The position numbers were made by a program, and so were the translations under genes. A DNA stretch of 51,883 bases from an uncultured Muribaculaceae bacterium (GTDB lineage Bacteria; Bacteroidota; Bacteroidia; Bacteroidales; Muribaculaceae): positions 1-51,883 of the forward strand of contig CAKTFH010000016.1 in assembly GCA_934555895.1 (NCBI GenBank). The letters are read 5' to 3'. Every line of letters starts with the position of its first letter. Positions within the stretch are counted from its first letter, which is position 1. Of this stretch, positions 24,516-32,045 are shown piece by piece. The notes beneath the pieces are model-generated. The model saw only the letters and a list, made by a program, of their open reading frames with translations. It was not told the DNA's origin and searched no databases.

Positions 24516-24694
24516 TTATCTTTGTCTCTATTCTCCAACAGCTCTTTGGCAGCAATCACCATAGGCTGACCATTTGCGTCAGCAATAACCATATCCTGAC
24601 CGAGAGCTGCCTTGCGCCGAAGAAGAGCCTCGTATGACTGTTTTAGTCCTTGATTAATTTTTATTCTTAAATTTATTTTTTCCTGTTCAGACAT
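24512..24694 (-). CDS. 60-residue partner of zeta-like kinase
   Basis: The small protein has a charged helical first half (EQEKINLRIKINQGLKQSYE) and the segment MVIADANGQPMVIAAKELL, which looks like a short beta hairpin plus helix. It overlaps the end of the zeta-like gene by 22 bases and the start of the PH-domain gene by 4. Its size and tight coupling make it a candidate antitoxin or accessory protein; no family is recognised, and antitoxins are more often encoded upstream of their toxins. Confidence 0.6.
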   Translation of the reverse strand: MSEQEKINLRIKINQGLKQSYEALLRRKAALGQDMVIADANGQPMVIAAKELLENRDKDK

Positions 24695-25245
24695 GATTCC
24701 TTTATTTTGTTAAAAACTGCATTATTTAATATCTCAGCCTCATTTGCCAATTCAACCGGGCTGTTTACATTATCATAAAAGCTCCAGCTATCCACAATTG
24801 GAGCGAAAATATTGAAGAAATTCTGTAATCCTAACCAATAACGCCTGTGAATTGTTTCGGTCTGGATATCATGGCCCCCTTCACTTACCCGTTTTGCAAC
24901 GCGAGCTACAGCCATTGCAGGAGAAGGAAGCCAAAAGAACAGAAGCACAACATTATAACTCTGCTTATGTGCTCGACTTACCAAAGATGCGTAACTACGG
25001 GTTGAAAGAGTCGTTTCTATAGCAAAAGTCTTTCCTTGACATAAAAGCAAATCAATCCGTTGAAGCATCAGTTTCCCGGCTTCAATGGCGACAGATTGAG
25101 GGTTGAATGGAGAAAGACCTTTTGCTATCTCATCTGCGTTGATAAATTCCCGACATTCCAATAAATCCGGCAAAACGGAATAGGAAGCCGTAGTTTTCCC
25201 GGCTCCATTACACCCTGCGATTATAAATAATGTCGGTTTAATCAT
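24673..25245 (-). CDS. Zeta-toxin-like P-loop kinase
   Basis: The 190-residue protein has Walker A GCNGAGKTT at residues 11-19, followed by FINADEIAKGLSPF, where the Asp of NADE is the expected catalytic or substrate-binding acid of zeta toxins, then GKTFAIETTLSTRSY and an Arg-rich lid (ARVAKRVSEGGHDI and IHRRY). Zeta toxins phosphorylate UDP-N-acetylglucosamine, but many chromosomal relatives have unknown substrates. It begins 26 bases after the tRNA-Ser terminator on the same strand with no visible promoter in the gap. Confidence 0.75.
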   Translation of the reverse strand: MIKPTLFIIAGCNGAGKTTASYSVLPDLLECREFINADEIAKGLSPFNPQSVAIEAGKLMLQRIDLLLCQGKTFAIETTLSTRSYASLVSRAHKQSYNVVLLFFWLPSPAMAVARVAKRVSEGGHDIQTETIHRRYWLGLQNFFNIFAPIVDSWSFYDNVNSPVELANEAEILNNAVFNKIKESCLNRKK

Positions 25246-25648: not shown

Positions 25649-28591
25649 ATGAGATATACGATACAGGGAGCGATGCGCCACATGGCGCTTGCCGCTCTTA
25701 TGGCCGGAGCACCGATGGCGGTTTACGGTCAGTTCATGCTGCTGCCTGCGGGCAGTGGCTCTGTAGGGAGTATTGAAGCGTCCGGAGCATATGCAACCCG
25801 TGGCTTGCTTATGTTCGATGATGCCAATATACATGGAGCTGTAGATCAGCTCACACAGGCATTGGCGGCTATGCCGGAGGGGAGCGGAGCCGAGCGCGAG
25901 CGTGCGGCATGGGCTTATGTGGTGAGCCGTCTTTCGCTCCCGTATGCCGACGGACAAACGCTTGTAGATGATTTTCTTGAAAATTATCCGTCTTCTCCGC
26001 GCCGACAGCTGGCCCTGATGGCGTTGGGCGATTTGATTTATGATACCGGTGACTATGCCGGCGCCCTAAAGGCCTACGGCCGTGTTGAGTCAGATGCACT
26101 GAGCTCTTCTATGGCCGATGCACTGGATTATCGCAGAGGTTTCTGCCTGCTTAGAATAGGAGAAAACGAGCAAGCCGGTGCCATTTTCAGCGCTCTTGCG
26201 TCCAAAGTCGAGTATCGCGACAACGCCGGATTTTATCTTGGATATATATCTTATGTGAAAGGTGACTATGACGCAGCAAGCAAAGCTTTTGAGCGTGTGT
26301 CCGACAAATCCTCTATGCCGGCTTGCATGGCCGATTATTATCTGGCTCAGATGGCTTATATGCGCCATGACTACAAAGAGGCCGCTGAGAAGGCCATGCG
26401 GCTCGTGAACCGCACTGATGTAGAACCTGATTTCCGAGGAGAGGCTTTGCGCATCGCCGGTGAGTCGCTCTACGAGACCGGCAAGAAAAGCGAGGCACTT
26501 CCTTATCTTGAGGAATATGTATCGTCAGTAGCCAACCCGCAGCCATCGGCATTATACATTATCGGTCTTACCGACTATCGCAATGGTGACTACAAAAAGG
26601 CGATAGAGCGCCTTACTCCTGTCACTGCCGACATCTCGGCCATGGGCCAGAGCGCATATCTGCTCATCGGTGAGTCGTATATGCAGCTTGGTAATTATAA
26701 TGCCGCAACTCTTGCCCTTGAAAAAGCCGCTCAGCCGGGCGGCGACGAGGCTGTGATGGAGGCTGCATTCTACAATCTGGCCGTAGCCCGTATGCAGGGC
26801 GGCAAGACTCCTTTCGGCTCTTCGGCCGCAATGCTTGAGGAGTTCCTGCAGCGTTTCCCGCAGTCGCAGTACGTGCCACTGGTGGCCGACTATCTTGTGA
26901 AGGGATACATCAACGACAATAATTTCCAGGCAGCTCTCGATGCCATCGACAAGGTGAAGCGCCCCGGCGATGCAGTGCTTGCTCTGAAGCAGACTGTGCT
27001 ATATTCGCTTGGAGTTCGTGAGCTCCAGAAAGGTGAGGCTTCAAAGGCTATTCCGCATCTTTCGGAAGCCGCATCGATGGGCCGATACAGCGAGTCAACC
27101 GCTGCTGAAGCGCTTTTGTGGCTTGGGGAGGCTCAGTATAAGACTGGCGACTATGCATCGGCAGTCATGAGCCTGAATGCATACCTCAAAAGCAGCGCCT
27201 CGAGCGACCGAAACCGCGCTCTTGCTTATTACGACCTTGGATATGCACAGTTCGCCCGCAAGCAGTTTAAGGACGCCAAGACCGATTTCCGCCGTTTTAT
27301 CCGTGAGAGCAGCGGCGCCGACAAGCATATGATATCCGACGCGCAGAACCGCCTCGGCGACTGCGACTATTATACCCGCAACTTCGATGCCGCGGCCGAG
27401 AGCTATCGGGCTGCATATGAGGCAAACCCCGCCGGAGGTGACTATTCCGTGTTCCAGCAGGGTGTCATGAAGGGGCTTAAGCGCGATTATTCGGCAAAAA
27501 TTGATATCCTCAATGGTTTGGTTTCGGAGTTTCCCAATTCTCCGCTTGTGCCTTCAGCGCTTCTTGAGATTGCAGAAAGCTATGTGGAGCTTGGCGACAC
27601 CGGGCGTGCCGTGGAAAGCTATACCGCACTGGTAAGCCGATATCCTTCCACCGACCAAGGGCGTCAGGCGCAGCTCATGCTCGCCATCACATACCTTAAT
27701 TCGGGCAACCGCAATCAGGCTGTGGCCCACTACCGCAAGGTAATCGAGACTTATCCGTCGTCGGAGCAGGCTCGTGTCGCGGCAGAAGACCTCAAACAAC
27801 TTTATGCCGATCAGGGGCGTCTTGATGAGTATCTCAATTTCATAGACAATGTGCCTCAAGCTCCTCGTCCCGACACTGCCGAGCTTGCCGAGCTTACTCT
27901 TAGAGGCGCTGAGAAAGCTGTAGAGGCAGGCCGATATACCGATGCGCGCCGTCTTGCTGGAGAAGTGATTGAAAAATATCCCGATTCGTCGCAGGCTGTG
28001 GAGGCTTTACCGATAGAGGCTGAAGCCGCCATGAAGCTGGGAGATGCCGAAGCCGCTCTCGCCGCCTACAGGCTGCTTGAGACAAAGGCATCCGACCCGG
28101 TCACCGTTAACAAAGCCCGTCTCGGCATCATGCGCATGAGTCGTGATATGTCAGACAACGACACAGCCCTCAGCATGGCCGATATGTTACTTGAGTCGTC
28201 AATTCTCGGTGCCGACGACAAGGCTGATGTGGCATTCACCAAAGCCTTGGCATTAAGCGAAAACGGCCGCGAGGATGATGCTGTGGAGATATGGCAGCAA
28301 CTTGCCGCAGACCCGGAACAGCTCACCGGCACAAAGAGCGCTCTTTATCTTGCCCAGTATCATTTCGATAAAAAACAGACCGAGAAGGCTCTCAAAGAGG
28401 TAAACGCGCTTATTGATGCAAATCCGCCCCATGACTACTGGCTGGCCCGTGGATTTATACTTCTTAGCGACATACTCCGCACCAAGGGAGAGAAATTCGA
28501 GGCAGACGAATATCTGCGCTCGCTGCGCCAGAACTATCCCGGCGAAGAACCCGACATCTTCCGTATGATTGATGAAAGGCTCGGCAAATGA
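25649..28591 (+). CDS. Exported 980-residue TPR protein
   Basis: After a signal peptide (MALAALMAGAPMAVYGQ within residues 12-28) the protein is made almost wholly of tetratricopeptide-like helical hairpins, with recurring AxxAFxxxxxxYP-type units such as DYDAASKAFERV, GDYASAVMSLNAYL, NFDAAAESYRAAYEANP and NQAVAHYRKVIETYPSS. Such periplasmic or outer-membrane TPR scaffolds hold envelope complexes together. The gene overlaps the next one by four bases if its upstream start is used. Met codons 9 and 12 are alternative starts. Codon use fits the surrounding core genes. Confidence 0.85.
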   Translation: MRYTIQGAMRHMALAALMAGAPMAVYGQFMLLPAGSGSVGSIEASGAYATRGLLMFDDANIHGAVDQLTQALAAMPEGSGAERERAAWAYVVSRLSLPYADGQTLVDDFLENYPSSPRRQLALMALGDLIYDTGDYAGALKAYGRVESDALSSSMADALDYRRGFCLLRIGENEQAGAIFSALASKVEYRDNAGFYLGYISYVKGDYDAASKAFERVSDKSSMPACMADYYLAQMAYMRHDYKEAAEKAMRLVNRTDVEPDFRGEALRIAGESLYETGKKSEALPYLEEYVSSVANPQPSALYIIGLTDYRNGDYKKAIERLTPVTADISAMGQSAYLLIGESYMQLGNYNAATLALEKAAQPGGDEAVMEAAFYNLAVARMQGGKTPFGSSAAMLEEFLQRFPQSQYVPLVADYLVKGYINDNNFQAALDAIDKVKRPGDAVLALKQTVLYSLGVRELQKGEASKAIPHLSEAASMGRYSESTAAEALLWLGEAQYKTGDYASAVMSLNAYLKSSASSDRNRALAYYDLGYAQFARKQFKDAKTDFRRFIRESSGADKHMISDAQNRLGDCDYYTRNFDAAAESYRAAYEANPAGGDYSVFQQGVMKGLKRDYSAKIDILNGLVSEFPNSPLVPSALLEIAESYVELGDTGRAVESYTALVSRYPSTDQGRQAQLMLAITYLNSGNRNQAVAHYRKVIETYPSSEQARVAAEDLKQLYADQGRLDEYLNFIDNVPQAPRPDTAELAELTLRGAEKAVEAGRYTDARRLAGEVIEKYPDSSQAVEALPIEAEAAMKLGDAEAALAAYRLLETKASDPVTVNKARLGIMRMSRDMSDNDTALSMADMLLESSILGADDKADVAFTKALALSENGREDDAVEIWQQLAADPEQLTGTKSALYLAQYHFDKKQTEKALKEVNALIDANPPHDYWLARGFILLSDILRTKGEKFEADEYLRSLRQNYPGEEPDIFRMIDERLGK

Positions 28592-28632
28592 CATCAATTC
28601 ATCACCATTCCCATCAGAACAATAACAGAAGC

Positions 28633-30462
28633 ATGAAACTTGTTTCTTATCACAGCATAATTGCGGCAACGGCACTGTGTGTCGGCTGCTGCGCCATTCC
28701 CGCAAGTGCGCAGCTTAACAAGGAAATCACTATCGACCGCGAGATCGATCCGGAAGTGAAAGCGGCATCGCGACCCGACCTGTTCCCGCGTGCACTCACA
28801 TTCCCGGCACAGAAAGGCAATCTGAAGTTTGTCGACTACAGTGAGGCAACGGCCATCAATCCCGGCATAGCTCCGCTTGGAGCAGCACCCACTGAAGCCG
28901 CCATTTCGCTCACGCCTTACCGCGGCTACGTTGACGCTTCATATTTTCCTACAGCCACGGTTGGGCTCTCTGCCGGATACTCCATATTACAGAAACCGGG
29001 AACAAAGCTCAATGTTTGGGGGCAGTTCAACAATGACTCATATAAAGACCGTCCGTTTTCAATTATGGACAAGGTGAAGTACAATATGCTCGGAGCTAGG
29101 GCCGGTATAGATTTCGCCGCAGCCATAGCCGATGCCGGAACCCTCAGCATTTCGACTGATTTCGGATATCACCGATATTCCAATTTGCAGCGTCTTATGC
29201 TTGATGCCGATATTGTTGTGGCTGATTATCCCATCAATATACCTGACATCGACAAGTGGCAGGGCAATTTCCGCTGGAATATATCGGCCGGATGGCATGG
29301 TGCCAATTCCACCGGCCTCCGTTATCATGCCGGGCTTCATTTCGGACTGTTCAATTTCATATCATCGTCGGTATCGGTTTTATTGCCTGATGGCAATGGG
29401 GTGGATGTAAAGCCTGTTCATCAGAATAGATTCGGACTTTCGTTTGGCGCATCACAGACAGTCGGAGAGGGGCAGAGAGCCGGCGTTGAGATTGACGCTG
29501 ACTTTCTTGGCGTTGGTCGTTACCGTACGATCGGTGACCTTGCGGCAATTGCCACATCCACAACCGAATTAGGCAGCGCTCAACTTAAAGATTTTGCCGA
29601 TCCCGGCAGCCGCATATTCGGCATAGTGTCTCTTTCGCCATACTATCGTTATTCTCCGGAAGGGGGAGTGGTAAGTCTTAAAGCAGGTGTGAAAGCTGAT
29701 TTTTCGATTCATTCAGGCAAAGCTATCCATGTGGCGCCCGATGTGATGTTCGCTGTTAATCCGGTGAGCGGCTTCGGAGCGTGGCTAAGTTTCGGAGGCG
29801 GTGAGCATCTCAACACTCTCGCTCGTCTCAGCGAGTTCACACCTTATATATCTCCGTTACTTGGCTATGGTATCAGCAATATATCTGTGAAGGGAGAATT
29901 CGGGCTGCGTATCGGTCCGTTCAAAGGAGCGTCGGTATGTCTCAATATTGCTTATGCAGCCGGCAACGACTGGCTTATGCCGGCATTCGACACGGATGCC
30001 AATCAGATTGTTTTTGCACCAGATCATTTGCGGTCATGGAAGGCTGGTGTGCGTTTCGTATGGGATTTTCGCTCCTGGCTATCGCTTGACGCCGGTTTTG
30101 AAACCCGTCTCGGGAAAGAGGATTCCGCCACATGGTTCGACTGGCTCGACCGCTCGCGTAGCCGCCTGACTGCATCGGTAAGTATCCGTCCGCTTAAGGC
30201 TCTTACAATTGATCTTGGCTACAATATGGCTATTGACAGGAGTATGGCGCTTCTCACTCGTGAACCTGTAGTGGCGGATTATATCCGGTCGATGAATCTT
30301 CGCAACCGCCATAGGCTCAACGTTGGTGCTTCATACCGTTTCAGCAATCCGTTTACAGTGTTCTGCCGCGTGGAAGATCTGCTCAACCGCTGTGAATACG
30401 ATGCTGTGGGTGTGCCTTCGCGAGGTCTTACCGGAGCTATTGGTTTCGGATTTAAATTTTGA
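28633..30462 (+). CDS. Outer-membrane beta-barrel partner of the TPR protein
   Basis: The ATG at 28633 is preferred since it gives a compact signal peptide (MKLVSYHSIIAATALCVG, cleaved after ASA). An earlier ATG at 28588 overlaps the TPR stop (ATGA) and may allow coupling. The 609-residue product has alternating aromatic/hydrophobic strands over its length and ends in GAIGFGFKF, the terminal Phe of barrel proteins. It resembles the barrel of TonB-dependent receptors but has no plug domain. A short N-terminal REIDPEVKAASRPDLFPRAL segment replaces it. Function unknown; cooperation with the TPR protein is inferred. Confidence 0.75.
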   Translation: MKLVSYHSIIAATALCVGCCAIPASAQLNKEITIDREIDPEVKAASRPDLFPRALTFPAQKGNLKFVDYSEATAINPGIAPLGAAPTEAAISLTPYRGYVDASYFPTATVGLSAGYSILQKPGTKLNVWGQFNNDSYKDRPFSIMDKVKYNMLGARAGIDFAAAIADAGTLSISTDFGYHRYSNLQRLMLDADIVVADYPINIPDIDKWQGNFRWNISAGWHGANSTGLRYHAGLHFGLFNFISSSVSVLLPDGNGVDVKPVHQNRFGLSFGASQTVGEGQRAGVEIDADFLGVGRYRTIGDLAAIATSTTELGSAQLKDFADPGSRIFGIVSLSPYYRYSPEGGVVSLKAGVKADFSIHSGKAIHVAPDVMFAVNPVSGFGAWLSFGGGEHLNTLARLSEFTPYISPLLGYGISNISVKGEFGLRIGPFKGASVCLNIAYAAGNDWLMPAFDTDANQIVFAPDHLRSWKAGVRFVWDFRSWLSLDAGFETRLGKEDSATWFDWLDRSRSRLTASVSIRPLKALTIDLGYNMAIDRSMALLTREPVVADYIRSMNLRNRHRLNVGASYRFSNPFTVFCRVEDLLNRCEYDAVGVPSRGLTGAIGFGFKF

Positions 30463-30508: not shown

Positions 30509-31330
30509 ATGTCAGAGGGAAAAGCAAAGTTGCTTCGTGAGACAGCAGAGATCGCGTTCACCGAGATCAAGCGTTTTCTTGAGCCCAGGCTTATGGAGAC
30601 ACTTTCACTCAGACGGATTATGGCTCCGCTGTTTCTGTCCGTGGGGTCTCCGTTGCTCGATGTCAGATGGCCCGGTGTGCGCATTTATCTTTCCGGCTCA
30701 GGCGAGGAAGTGGAGCTTATTGGTTCGCTTGATGTGTGGCTTCGTGGACAGCTGACTCGTTATGACATAGCTCCAGGCTTCGGAGTATTCACTATCATGA
30801 ATGCCATTAGGCCGCAGTTGCCTCACAATAGTACTTCGTCGCCTCACGTAGCAGCGTGGGCGTGGCAACAAGCCGTTGAACCTTCACAACTTACGGAGAA
30901 GTTTCTTGTAGACGCAGCTCGAAAAATCCATACGCTTATTTTCGACACTGAACGGATGCTGCTTGCCTTGTTTCCCCACATGCATGCCACGGTGAGCAAA
31001 GAAATTCGGATAATGCATGAGGGGCAGCTAACGGCACTTTATCCGTCATTTGAGGGCGAACGCCGCATTTATGAGCATCTGTATCCCGAGAGCGATGATC
31101 AGGATGATGCCTCACTCCGGTCTTCGCCCATGATGTTGCTTGTGCGCGACACCGATGCTGAGGCGCTGCAAGGTGAATTCTGGATTTGGAATCGTCTGCT
31201 GCGTCGACCCGTAATGGTGGCTGATATCGCTGCCCGTGGTGCCGACTCTGTAGGCCGTCCATCGGTTGGAGGCAACATCTACCGGGGCACACTGTCGCTT
31301 CAGTTGCTTCAACAGGACCGCCTTATCTGA
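30509..31330 (+). CDS. AsnA-like protein with degenerate active site
   Basis: The 273-residue protein aligns by eye along its length with ammonia-dependent asparagine synthetase AsnA: RETAEIAFTEIKRFLEPRL, LSLRRIMAPLF, IGSLDVWLR (for HSLAKWKR), YDIAPGFGVFTIMNAIRP, VAAWAWQ (for VDQWDWE), QGEFWIWN (for NGDILVWN) and VGGNIYRGTLSL (for IGGGIGQSRLTM). Several ATP and aspartate contacts are replaced, and the RAPDYDDW loop is deleted; AsnA usually has 330-345 residues. It is thus probably a non-catalytic paralogue of this class-II-synthetase fold. The ATG at 30509 is preferred to a TTG three codons earlier. It lies 46 bases after the barrel gene and 40 before trmD. Confidence 0.75.
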   Translation: MSEGKAKLLRETAEIAFTEIKRFLEPRLMETLSLRRIMAPLFLSVGSPLLDVRWPGVRIYLSGSGEEVELIGSLDVWLRGQLTRYDIAPGFGVFTIMNAIRPQLPHNSTSSPHVAAWAWQQAVEPSQLTEKFLVDAARKIHTLIFDTERMLLALFPHMHATVSKEIRIMHEGQLTALYPSFEGERRIYEHLYPESDDQDDASLRSSPMMLLVRDTDAEALQGEFWIWNRLLRRPVMVADIAARGADSVGRPSVGGNIYRGTLSLQLLQQDRLI

Positions 31331-31370: not shown

Positions 31371-32045
31371 ATGCGTATTGATATCATCACTGTACTTCCT
31401 GAAATGTTTGACTCGCCTCTCAGTTGTTCCATATTACAGAGGGCGCAAAACAAGGGGCTTGTGCAGTTTAACATACATAATCTACGGGATTACACCACAA
31501 ATAAGCACCGCAAAGTAGATGATTATCCGTTCGGAGGCGAGGCCGGCATGGTGATGCAGGTCGAGCCTATCGACCGTTGTATATCGGCATTGAAGACCGA
31601 ACGCGATTACGATGAAGTGATATTCACCTCGCCCGACGGAGAGCTCTTCGATCAGCCTATGGCTAACCGTATGTCGTTGTATAACAACATAATTATATTA
31701 TGCGGTCATTATAAGGGAGTTGATTACCGTGTACGCGAGCACTTGATAACAAAGGAAATCTCTATAGGCGACTATGTGCTCACTGGAGGAGAACTTCCCG
31801 CTATCATCATTTCCGACGCACTTGTGCGCCTCATTCCAGGCGCGATAGGAGATGAGCAGAGTGCTCTCTCCGATTCATTCCAGGACCATCTGCTGGCGGC
31901 TCCTGACTACACCCGCCCGGCTGAATACCGCGGCTGGCGGGTGCCCGACATTCTGCTTTCAGGCCATGAAGCAAAGATAGCCGAATGGCGTCATGAGCAG
32001 GCGCTGGAGCGTACTCAGCGTCTTAGGCCGGATCTGCTGAAGTGA
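31371..32045 (+). CDS. trmD: tRNA (guanine-37-N1)-methyltransferase
   Basis: The 224-residue SPOUT enzyme methylates G37 next to the anticodon and so prevents +1 frameshifts. Knot motifs are intact: [19 protein letters not shown] near residue 104-122 and [16 protein letters not shown] near 128-143, plus the early [12 protein letters not shown] and the [12 protein letters not shown] substrate loop. Length and start are normal. It is not near rpsP or rplS as in many bacteria, but this is common in Bacteroidota. Confidence 0.95.

Follow-up and report, generated by a model that had tools for sequence, protein, structure and literature searches.

A Putative Pseudo-Synthetase Derived from AsnA, Encoded behind a TPR/Beta-Barrel Gene Pair in Muribaculaceae

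The AsnA-Like Gene and its Relationship to AsnA

The stretch of DNA analysed here (the window) consists of 51,883 nucleotides from an uncultured Muribaculaceae bacterium. Its forward strand contains, at positions 30509..31330, a gene for a protein of 273 amino acids (aa) that is related to the ammonia-dependent asparagine synthetase AsnA, and which we will refer to as the AsnA-like protein. The gene is preceded by a pair of genes for a tetratricopeptide repeat (TPR) protein and a beta-barrel protein, and it is followed by trmD. The reading frame is open from the ATG at 30509 to the stop at 31330, i.e. 273 codons with no internal stops, as was stated in an earlier note on this DNA that was made from the sequence alone.

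The sole Pfam match of the AsnA-like protein is to AsnA (PF03590; E 8.3e-27), where its score of 94.9 bits is above the gathering score of 27, and its sole match in NCBIfam is to the asnA equivalog (TIGR00669), for which a score of 45 bits is far below the cut-off of 292.8. As the protein matches the AsnA profile but remains so far below the equivalog cut-off, it is related to AsnA but is not recognisable as a working AsnA. With E values up to 10, four matches were obtained in the PDB sequences; the three best are AsnA (9v83, 4lns, and 11as), and the fourth is a weak match to a KEOPS subunit (E 0.028). The predicted structure of the protein, which is about 70 residues shorter than AsnA, has the AsnA fold of the class-II tRNA synthetase type, which in the model begins at residue 10. 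The Pfam profile, the PDB matches and the modelled fold are thus in agreement with the homology proposed earlier, and neither an unrelated fold nor a better match to another family, the two results that the earlier note had named as counting against it, was observed.

Replacement of the Active Site

The sequence alignment consisted of 105 rows from the family of the AsnA-like protein and 26 rows of canonical AsnA, of which 20 were from related genomes and six were named plasmid-collection records. The family rows were taken from 115 proteins (P0001–P0115), ten of which (P0045, P0046, P0048, P0055, P0088, P0092, P0110, P0113, P0114, and P0115) were excluded as short, partial or chimeric. All 105 members match the NCBIfam asnA profile with E values no higher than 0.001 (the lowest being 1.2e-22), and the median isoelectric point (pI) of the family is 6.15. 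Canonical AsnA has 115 columns where one residue is present in at least 96% of the rows. In the AsnA-like family, 23 of these are kept at a level of at least 90%, 11 have switched to another residue in at least 85% of the rows, 56 are relaxed (i.e. the commonest residue, in some columns still the canonical one, accounts for less than 85%), 21 are most commonly deleted, and four are unclassed. The switched columns (AsnA residue first) are K77 to L78, Q116 to A116, D118 to A118, E120 to Q120, S250 to A238, Y93 to F94, Y113 to H113, G294 to N256, Q297 to R259, K307 to Q269, and V38 to L43. The columns of D115, E248, R255, and R299 are relaxed, and those of the RAPDYDDW loop are deleted.

The codon for Leu78, which takes the place of Lys77 of AsnA, lies at 30740..30742 on the forward strand, and Leu is found here in 104 of the 105 homologues. 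Codons 115–120 (30851..30868, forward strand) specify AAWAWQ in place of the D115-Q116-W-D118-W-E120 of AsnA. Throughout the family, position 116 is occupied by Ala, Thr or Ser and position 118 by Ala, Ser, Gly or Val (105/105 in both cases), whereas Gln120 is present in all homologues except one, which has Arg. Apart from an Asp at position 115 in three homologues, no acidic residue is found at positions 115, 116, 118, and 120. Met236 and Ala238 of the window protein are at the places of E248 and S250, and codons 259–261 (31283..31291, forward strand) include Arg259, which corresponds to Q297, and Thr261, which replaces Arg299. Arg259 is present in 105/105 homologues and is new to the AsnA-like family. 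Alignment of Arg259 with Arg299 by means of a two-residue gap was considered and rejected in favour of the ungapped alignment, which agrees better with the helix that follows; Arg299 is accordingly regarded as lost, and Arg259 as a new residue.

The replacements that had been noted earlier in the window protein (Leu78, AAxAxQ, Met and Ala, Thr, and deletion of the loop) are all correct by this alignment, and the loss of catalytic residues is fixed across the 105 homologues. The residues that had been described as retained, Asp51, Arg101, and Arg243 (AsnA D46, R100, and R255), are likewise present in the window protein, but in the family as a whole Arg243 is kept in only 6/105 homologues and Asp51 in 82/105. 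Sixteen columns are invariant across the family. Residues R35, R36, and P40, which we assign to the motif-1 dimer interface, show such invariance. PMC3532385 describes an Asp-Gln pair (D222-Q118) that is expected to hold the beta-carboxylate of the substrate in AsnA. Based upon the numbering, we equate this pair with Gln116 of the Escherichia coli AsnA and the Asp in the RAPDYDDW loop, both of which are lost here, and for the other catalytic residues we assume the list of the earlier note. In terms of what characterises a functional AsnA, the AsnA-like protein exhibits the Pfam profile and the fold, but its NCBIfam score lies below the equivalog cut-off and the catalytic residues are missing. 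We consider it very probable that this protein is not an asparagine synthetase.

Could the protein still be an enzyme that acts on a different substrate? In our view it is unlikely to be a ligase or transferase that, in the manner of EpmA, uses the class-II fold and Arg101 together with a neutral pocket. Although the retention of Arg101 in 100/105 homologues, the near-invariance of the new polar residues Gln120 and Arg259 at or near catalytic-site positions, and the purifying selection described below would all fit such an enzyme, the residues K77, Q116, D118, E120, E248, S250, and R299 have all been replaced, 21 canonical-invariant columns have been deleted, and the acidic residues of the 115–120 segment have disappeared save for Asp115 in the three homologues noted above.

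Selection, Origin and Distribution

The ratios of nonsynonymous to synonymous substitution rates (dN/dS) were calculated for the eight closest pairs by the Nei-Gojobori method. In the four pairs where the synonymous sites were unsaturated, the AsnA-like gene has values of 0.060, 0.078, 0.085, and 0.085, which supports the earlier view that the gene is kept under selection, and no internal stop is present in any of its 13 genomic copies. The pairs involving the window's own gene are saturated, with proportions of nonsynonymous and synonymous differences of 0.26–0.28 and 0.79–0.84, respectively. The values for trmD are 0.008 and 0.021 (two unsaturated pairs) and those for the barrel gene are 0.12–0.34 (six unsaturated pairs).

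In a maximum-likelihood tree based upon 30 family and 26 canonical AsnA rows, the AsnA-like family formed one clade (support 100/100) within the AsnA sequences of its own bacterial family, where its neighbours were the canonical AsnA of loci L042 and L043 (99/99). The stem branch of the clade has a length of 4.1 changes per column. Descent from HisRS is not indicated; the profile and the strong PDB matches are all to AsnA, and the family nests within AsnA in this tree, which contained no HisRS row. In three mapped relatives (L095–L097), which are those with the closest canonical AsnA, canonical asnA is located on the same strand 11–12 kb downstream of the TPR/barrel pair, and in G133, G109, and G015 of the same group asnA and the pair are on different contigs. 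As a tentative suggestion, the AsnA-like gene may have arisen from a local asnA. In 20 loci of canonical asnA, no TPR, barrel or trmD gene was found beside it within about 1.5 kb per side, or less at contig ends.

When one genome from each of 84,980 species was scanned for two peptide patterns, an approach that detects only loci matching both, 13 loci with the AsnA-like gene were identified; 13 of 37 stretches encoded a relative. The titles of these loci are Bacteroidales, or families and genera that we take to be Bacteroidales, and all 13 carrier genomes belong to the family sample of L013, which is titled Muribaculaceae and contains 297 genomes. This sample includes all of the carriers already known, and 13/297 is not an unbiased frequency. 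A profile of the family scored 344–417 bits in the 13 carriers and at most 195 bits elsewhere; the matches in non-carriers are mostly to frames of about 345 aa, and no intermediates were observed among the 297 genomes. In protein database searches, at least about 125 clusters of the family, including fragments, were found among the matches listed; in one of these searches, the 7996 candidates sharing most words were scored and 120 of 229 were listed. The AsnA-like protein also retrieved 13 records from the plasmid collection at 24–33% identity, and the six of these that were examined are all canonical AsnA by motif. One of the loci, L009, is a 3390-base contig titled as a metagenome-assembled genome of Alistipes timonensis, in which the AsnA-like gene is flanked by an incomplete barrel gene and trmD; as its genome, like that of L013, belongs to the Muribaculaceae sample, this organism name is probably wrong.

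Gene Neighbourhood

The genes surrounding the AsnA-like gene are as described earlier, viz. trmD and a pair of envelope genes, and all of them are on the forward strand. The first gene of the conserved run (25649..28591) encodes the 980 aa TPR protein, whose N-terminus looks like a signal peptide by eye. It is followed by the gene for the 624 aa beta-barrel protein (28588..30462), which is separated from the AsnA-like gene by 46 bp, and trmD, the gene for tRNA (guanosine(37)-N1)-methyltransferase (31371..32045), is located 40 bp downstream of the latter. The barrel protein has no match in Pfam or NCBIfam. Its assignment to the TonB-receptor type is based upon a predicted structure (pLDDT 75.3, with residues 1–109 below 50), for which Foldseek matched TonB-dependent receptors. 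Upstream of the TPR gene, on the reverse strand (24673–25245), is a gene for a 190-aa protein with a P-loop (GCNGAGKTT), which by eye looks like a zeta-toxin-like or kinase-like ATPase.

The barrel gene is directly upstream of the AsnA-like gene in 13/13 loci (it is cut in L009, and the position of the AsnA-like gene in L004 is taken from the peptide-pattern scan), and the TPR gene precedes the barrel gene in all 11 loci whose sequence extends far enough. With the barrel profile, matches with E no higher than 0.001, some of them weak, were obtained in 284 of the 297 genomes. Among 18 further barrel loci (L071–L088), none of which showed an AsnA-like gene, 17 have a TPR match ahead of the barrel gene. 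The same gene order, annotated as a tetratricopeptide repeat protein and a TonB-dependent receptor, is present in Bacteroides finegoldii. The TPR/barrel genes appear to be an old pair that is nearly universal in the Muribaculaceae sample. The AsnA-like gene was thus probably added once behind this older pair. In a tree of the barrel proteins from the window, 12 of the 13 loci (without L009, where the gene is cut), 10 chosen non-carriers and L077, the carrier barrels formed one clade (100/99); the barrel of G169 (L077) branched inside this clade, and its contig ends within the barrel gene.

These observations also bear upon the possibility that the AsnA-like protein serves some cytosolic partner (TrmD or a tRNA, for example) as a subunit or regulator, with the envelope genes as bystanders. 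The gene trmD follows the AsnA-like gene in the window and in 10/13 loci, and the protein shares its fold with class-II tRNA synthetases. However, no trmD was seen in the flanks of the remaining three loci (about 10 kb in L006 and L010, and 1.9 kb in L008), whereas the barrel gene is constant; no further domain was detected by Pfam, and the median pI given above also speaks against this proposal, which we regard as quite improbable.

Asparagine Supply

The question of whether a canonical asnA is present elsewhere was addressed in the 13 related carrier genomes. Canonical AsnA was found in only three of them, no AsnB above the NCBIfam equivalog cut-off and no GatB was found in any of the 13 (the GatB search covered the carriers only), yet AsnRS was above its cut-off in 12. 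In ten carriers, therefore, no known route to asparagine was seen among AsnA, AsnB, and GatB. Short matches to Pfam Asn_synthase, just above the cut-off (22–24 bits, at most 66 of 354 positions), are present in three carriers (G008, G009, and G010) and are taken to be other proteins.

Taken by themselves, these results could point to an unorthodox asparagine synthetase that has replaced AsnA and AsnB in its hosts. In addition to the lost substrate-holding Gln, loop Asp and other catalytic residues, however, the retention of canonical AsnA in three carriers, the short Asn_synthase matches and the situation in the non-carriers all stand against this. An AsnA match, counting all profile matches, some of them partial, is present in 151/284 non-carriers and absent in 133/284, and only five of the latter (G020, G176, G177, G194, and G289) contain AsnB at E 1e-40, so that 128/284 have neither. 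Since the lack of both enzymes is common without the AsnA-like gene, the carriers need not use the AsnA-like protein for asparagine. Canonical AsnA is somewhat less often present in carriers than in non-carriers (3/13 vs. 151/284; Fisher p 0.046), but this test ignores kinship and assembly gaps. Replacement is thus disfavoured and appears very improbable. A role as a regulator of canonical AsnA is also disfavoured, because with AsnA in only 3/13 carriers it could not serve this purpose in most of them. Many members of this gut family may depend on asparagine, or may possess a further route to it, and assembly gaps could contribute.

Proposed Role of the AsnA-Like Protein

The three main claims of the earlier note, homology to AsnA, loss of its catalytic residues and maintenance by selection, were examined by means of profiles and fold, the 105 homologues, and dN/dS, respectively, and all of them hold. 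Computation establishes the descent from AsnA, the fold, the fixed neutral replacements, the purifying selection, the single clade and the constant barrel neighbour, and the newly invariant residues together with the single carrier clade imply a new role. We therefore favour, as the probable explanation, a pseudo-synthetase: an AsnA paralogue with a single origin in the Muribaculaceae, in which aspartate activation was lost before a new form became fixed. A decaying pseudogene is practically out of the question: although the stem branch is long and many AsnA columns are lost, the 13 copies are free of stops, dN/dS is low in four pairs, 16 columns are invariant, and decay would blur the catalytic columns, several of which have instead been re-fixed.

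The pseudo-synthetase would presumably be cytosolic, as no signal peptide is apparent by eye and the modelled fold begins near the N-terminus, and the invariant R35, R36, and P40 would be consistent with a homodimer. It would make no asparagine, and a partner protein or small ligand might be bound in or near the remodelled cleft formed by L78, A116, A118, Q120, N256, and R259. Its action could resemble that of HisZ on HisG and would most likely be coordinated with the TPR/barrel genes, and the partner would most likely be something expressed with this pair. A binding or regulatory role tied to the TPR/barrel gene run is a tentative proposal, to which we assign somewhat less than even chances; because both proteins of the pair look exported, co-regulation with the pair is as likely as contact. 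A more specific version, in which the remodelled active site of this recently evolved family, as a specific ligand or partner site, links an outer-membrane system of the TPR/TonB-receptor type in the same gene run to a cytosolic signal (e.g. an amino acid or nucleotide), is a speculation that we think doubtful.

Several points weigh against the pseudo-synthetase and its proposed connections. None of the four unsaturated dN/dS pairs includes the gene from the window, and the very long stem of the family could have biased the placement of its exact sister group. The motif-2 Arg101 is kept in nearly all homologues, and nucleotide binding or other chemistry is thus possible. The TPR and barrel proteins look exported, whereas the AsnA-like protein looks cytosolic, and the link between them may be co-expression alone. 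Finally, the ligand, the partner and the dimer are all hypothetical.

Significance and Comparison with Known Systems

The AsnA-like gene is easily mislabelled as encoding a working enzyme. Pfam calls it AsnA and four of the homologue clusters (P0002, P0049, P0050, and P0066) carry the source name aspartate--ammonia ligase; as no other known route to asparagine is seen in 10/13 carriers, metabolic models may wrongly credit carriers with asparagine synthesis. In the open-access literature that was searched, no description of a catalytically dead AsnA family was found, and few non-catalytic descendants of tRNA-synthetase folds are known. The AsnA-like protein would be a new non-catalytic branch of AsnA, and it has probably been repurposed. 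As the protein can be assigned to a single bacterial family, and as both its active sister enzyme and the switched columns are known, the change in function can be tested stepwise.

With AsnA itself, the protein shares descent, the class-II fold, the motif-2 Arg and 23/115 canonical-invariant columns, but it differs in the replacement of K77, D115, Q116, D118, E120, E248, S250, and R299 and in the deletion of the RAPDYDDW loop. A precedent for a regulatory subunit derived from a non-catalytic protein with a synthetase fold is provided by HisZ, which PMC9437257 describes as a paralogue of HisRS without adenylation that serves as the regulatory subunit of HisG. Judged by its residues and by selection, the AsnA-like protein would be of the same type, i.e. 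a conserved, selected class-II synthetase paralogue whose adenylation residues are lost. However, it is derived from AsnA rather than HisRS, and its neighbours are envelope genes and trmD rather than a biosynthetic enzyme. Another comparison is with EpmA/PoxA, a paralogue of LysRS that lysylates EF-P. It is named as a paralogue of the class-II catalytic domain in PMC3532385, cited above. The likeness in this case lies in a class-II paralogue with a role outside tRNA charging, but EpmA is catalytic, whereas in the AsnA-like protein the catalytic residues are gone.
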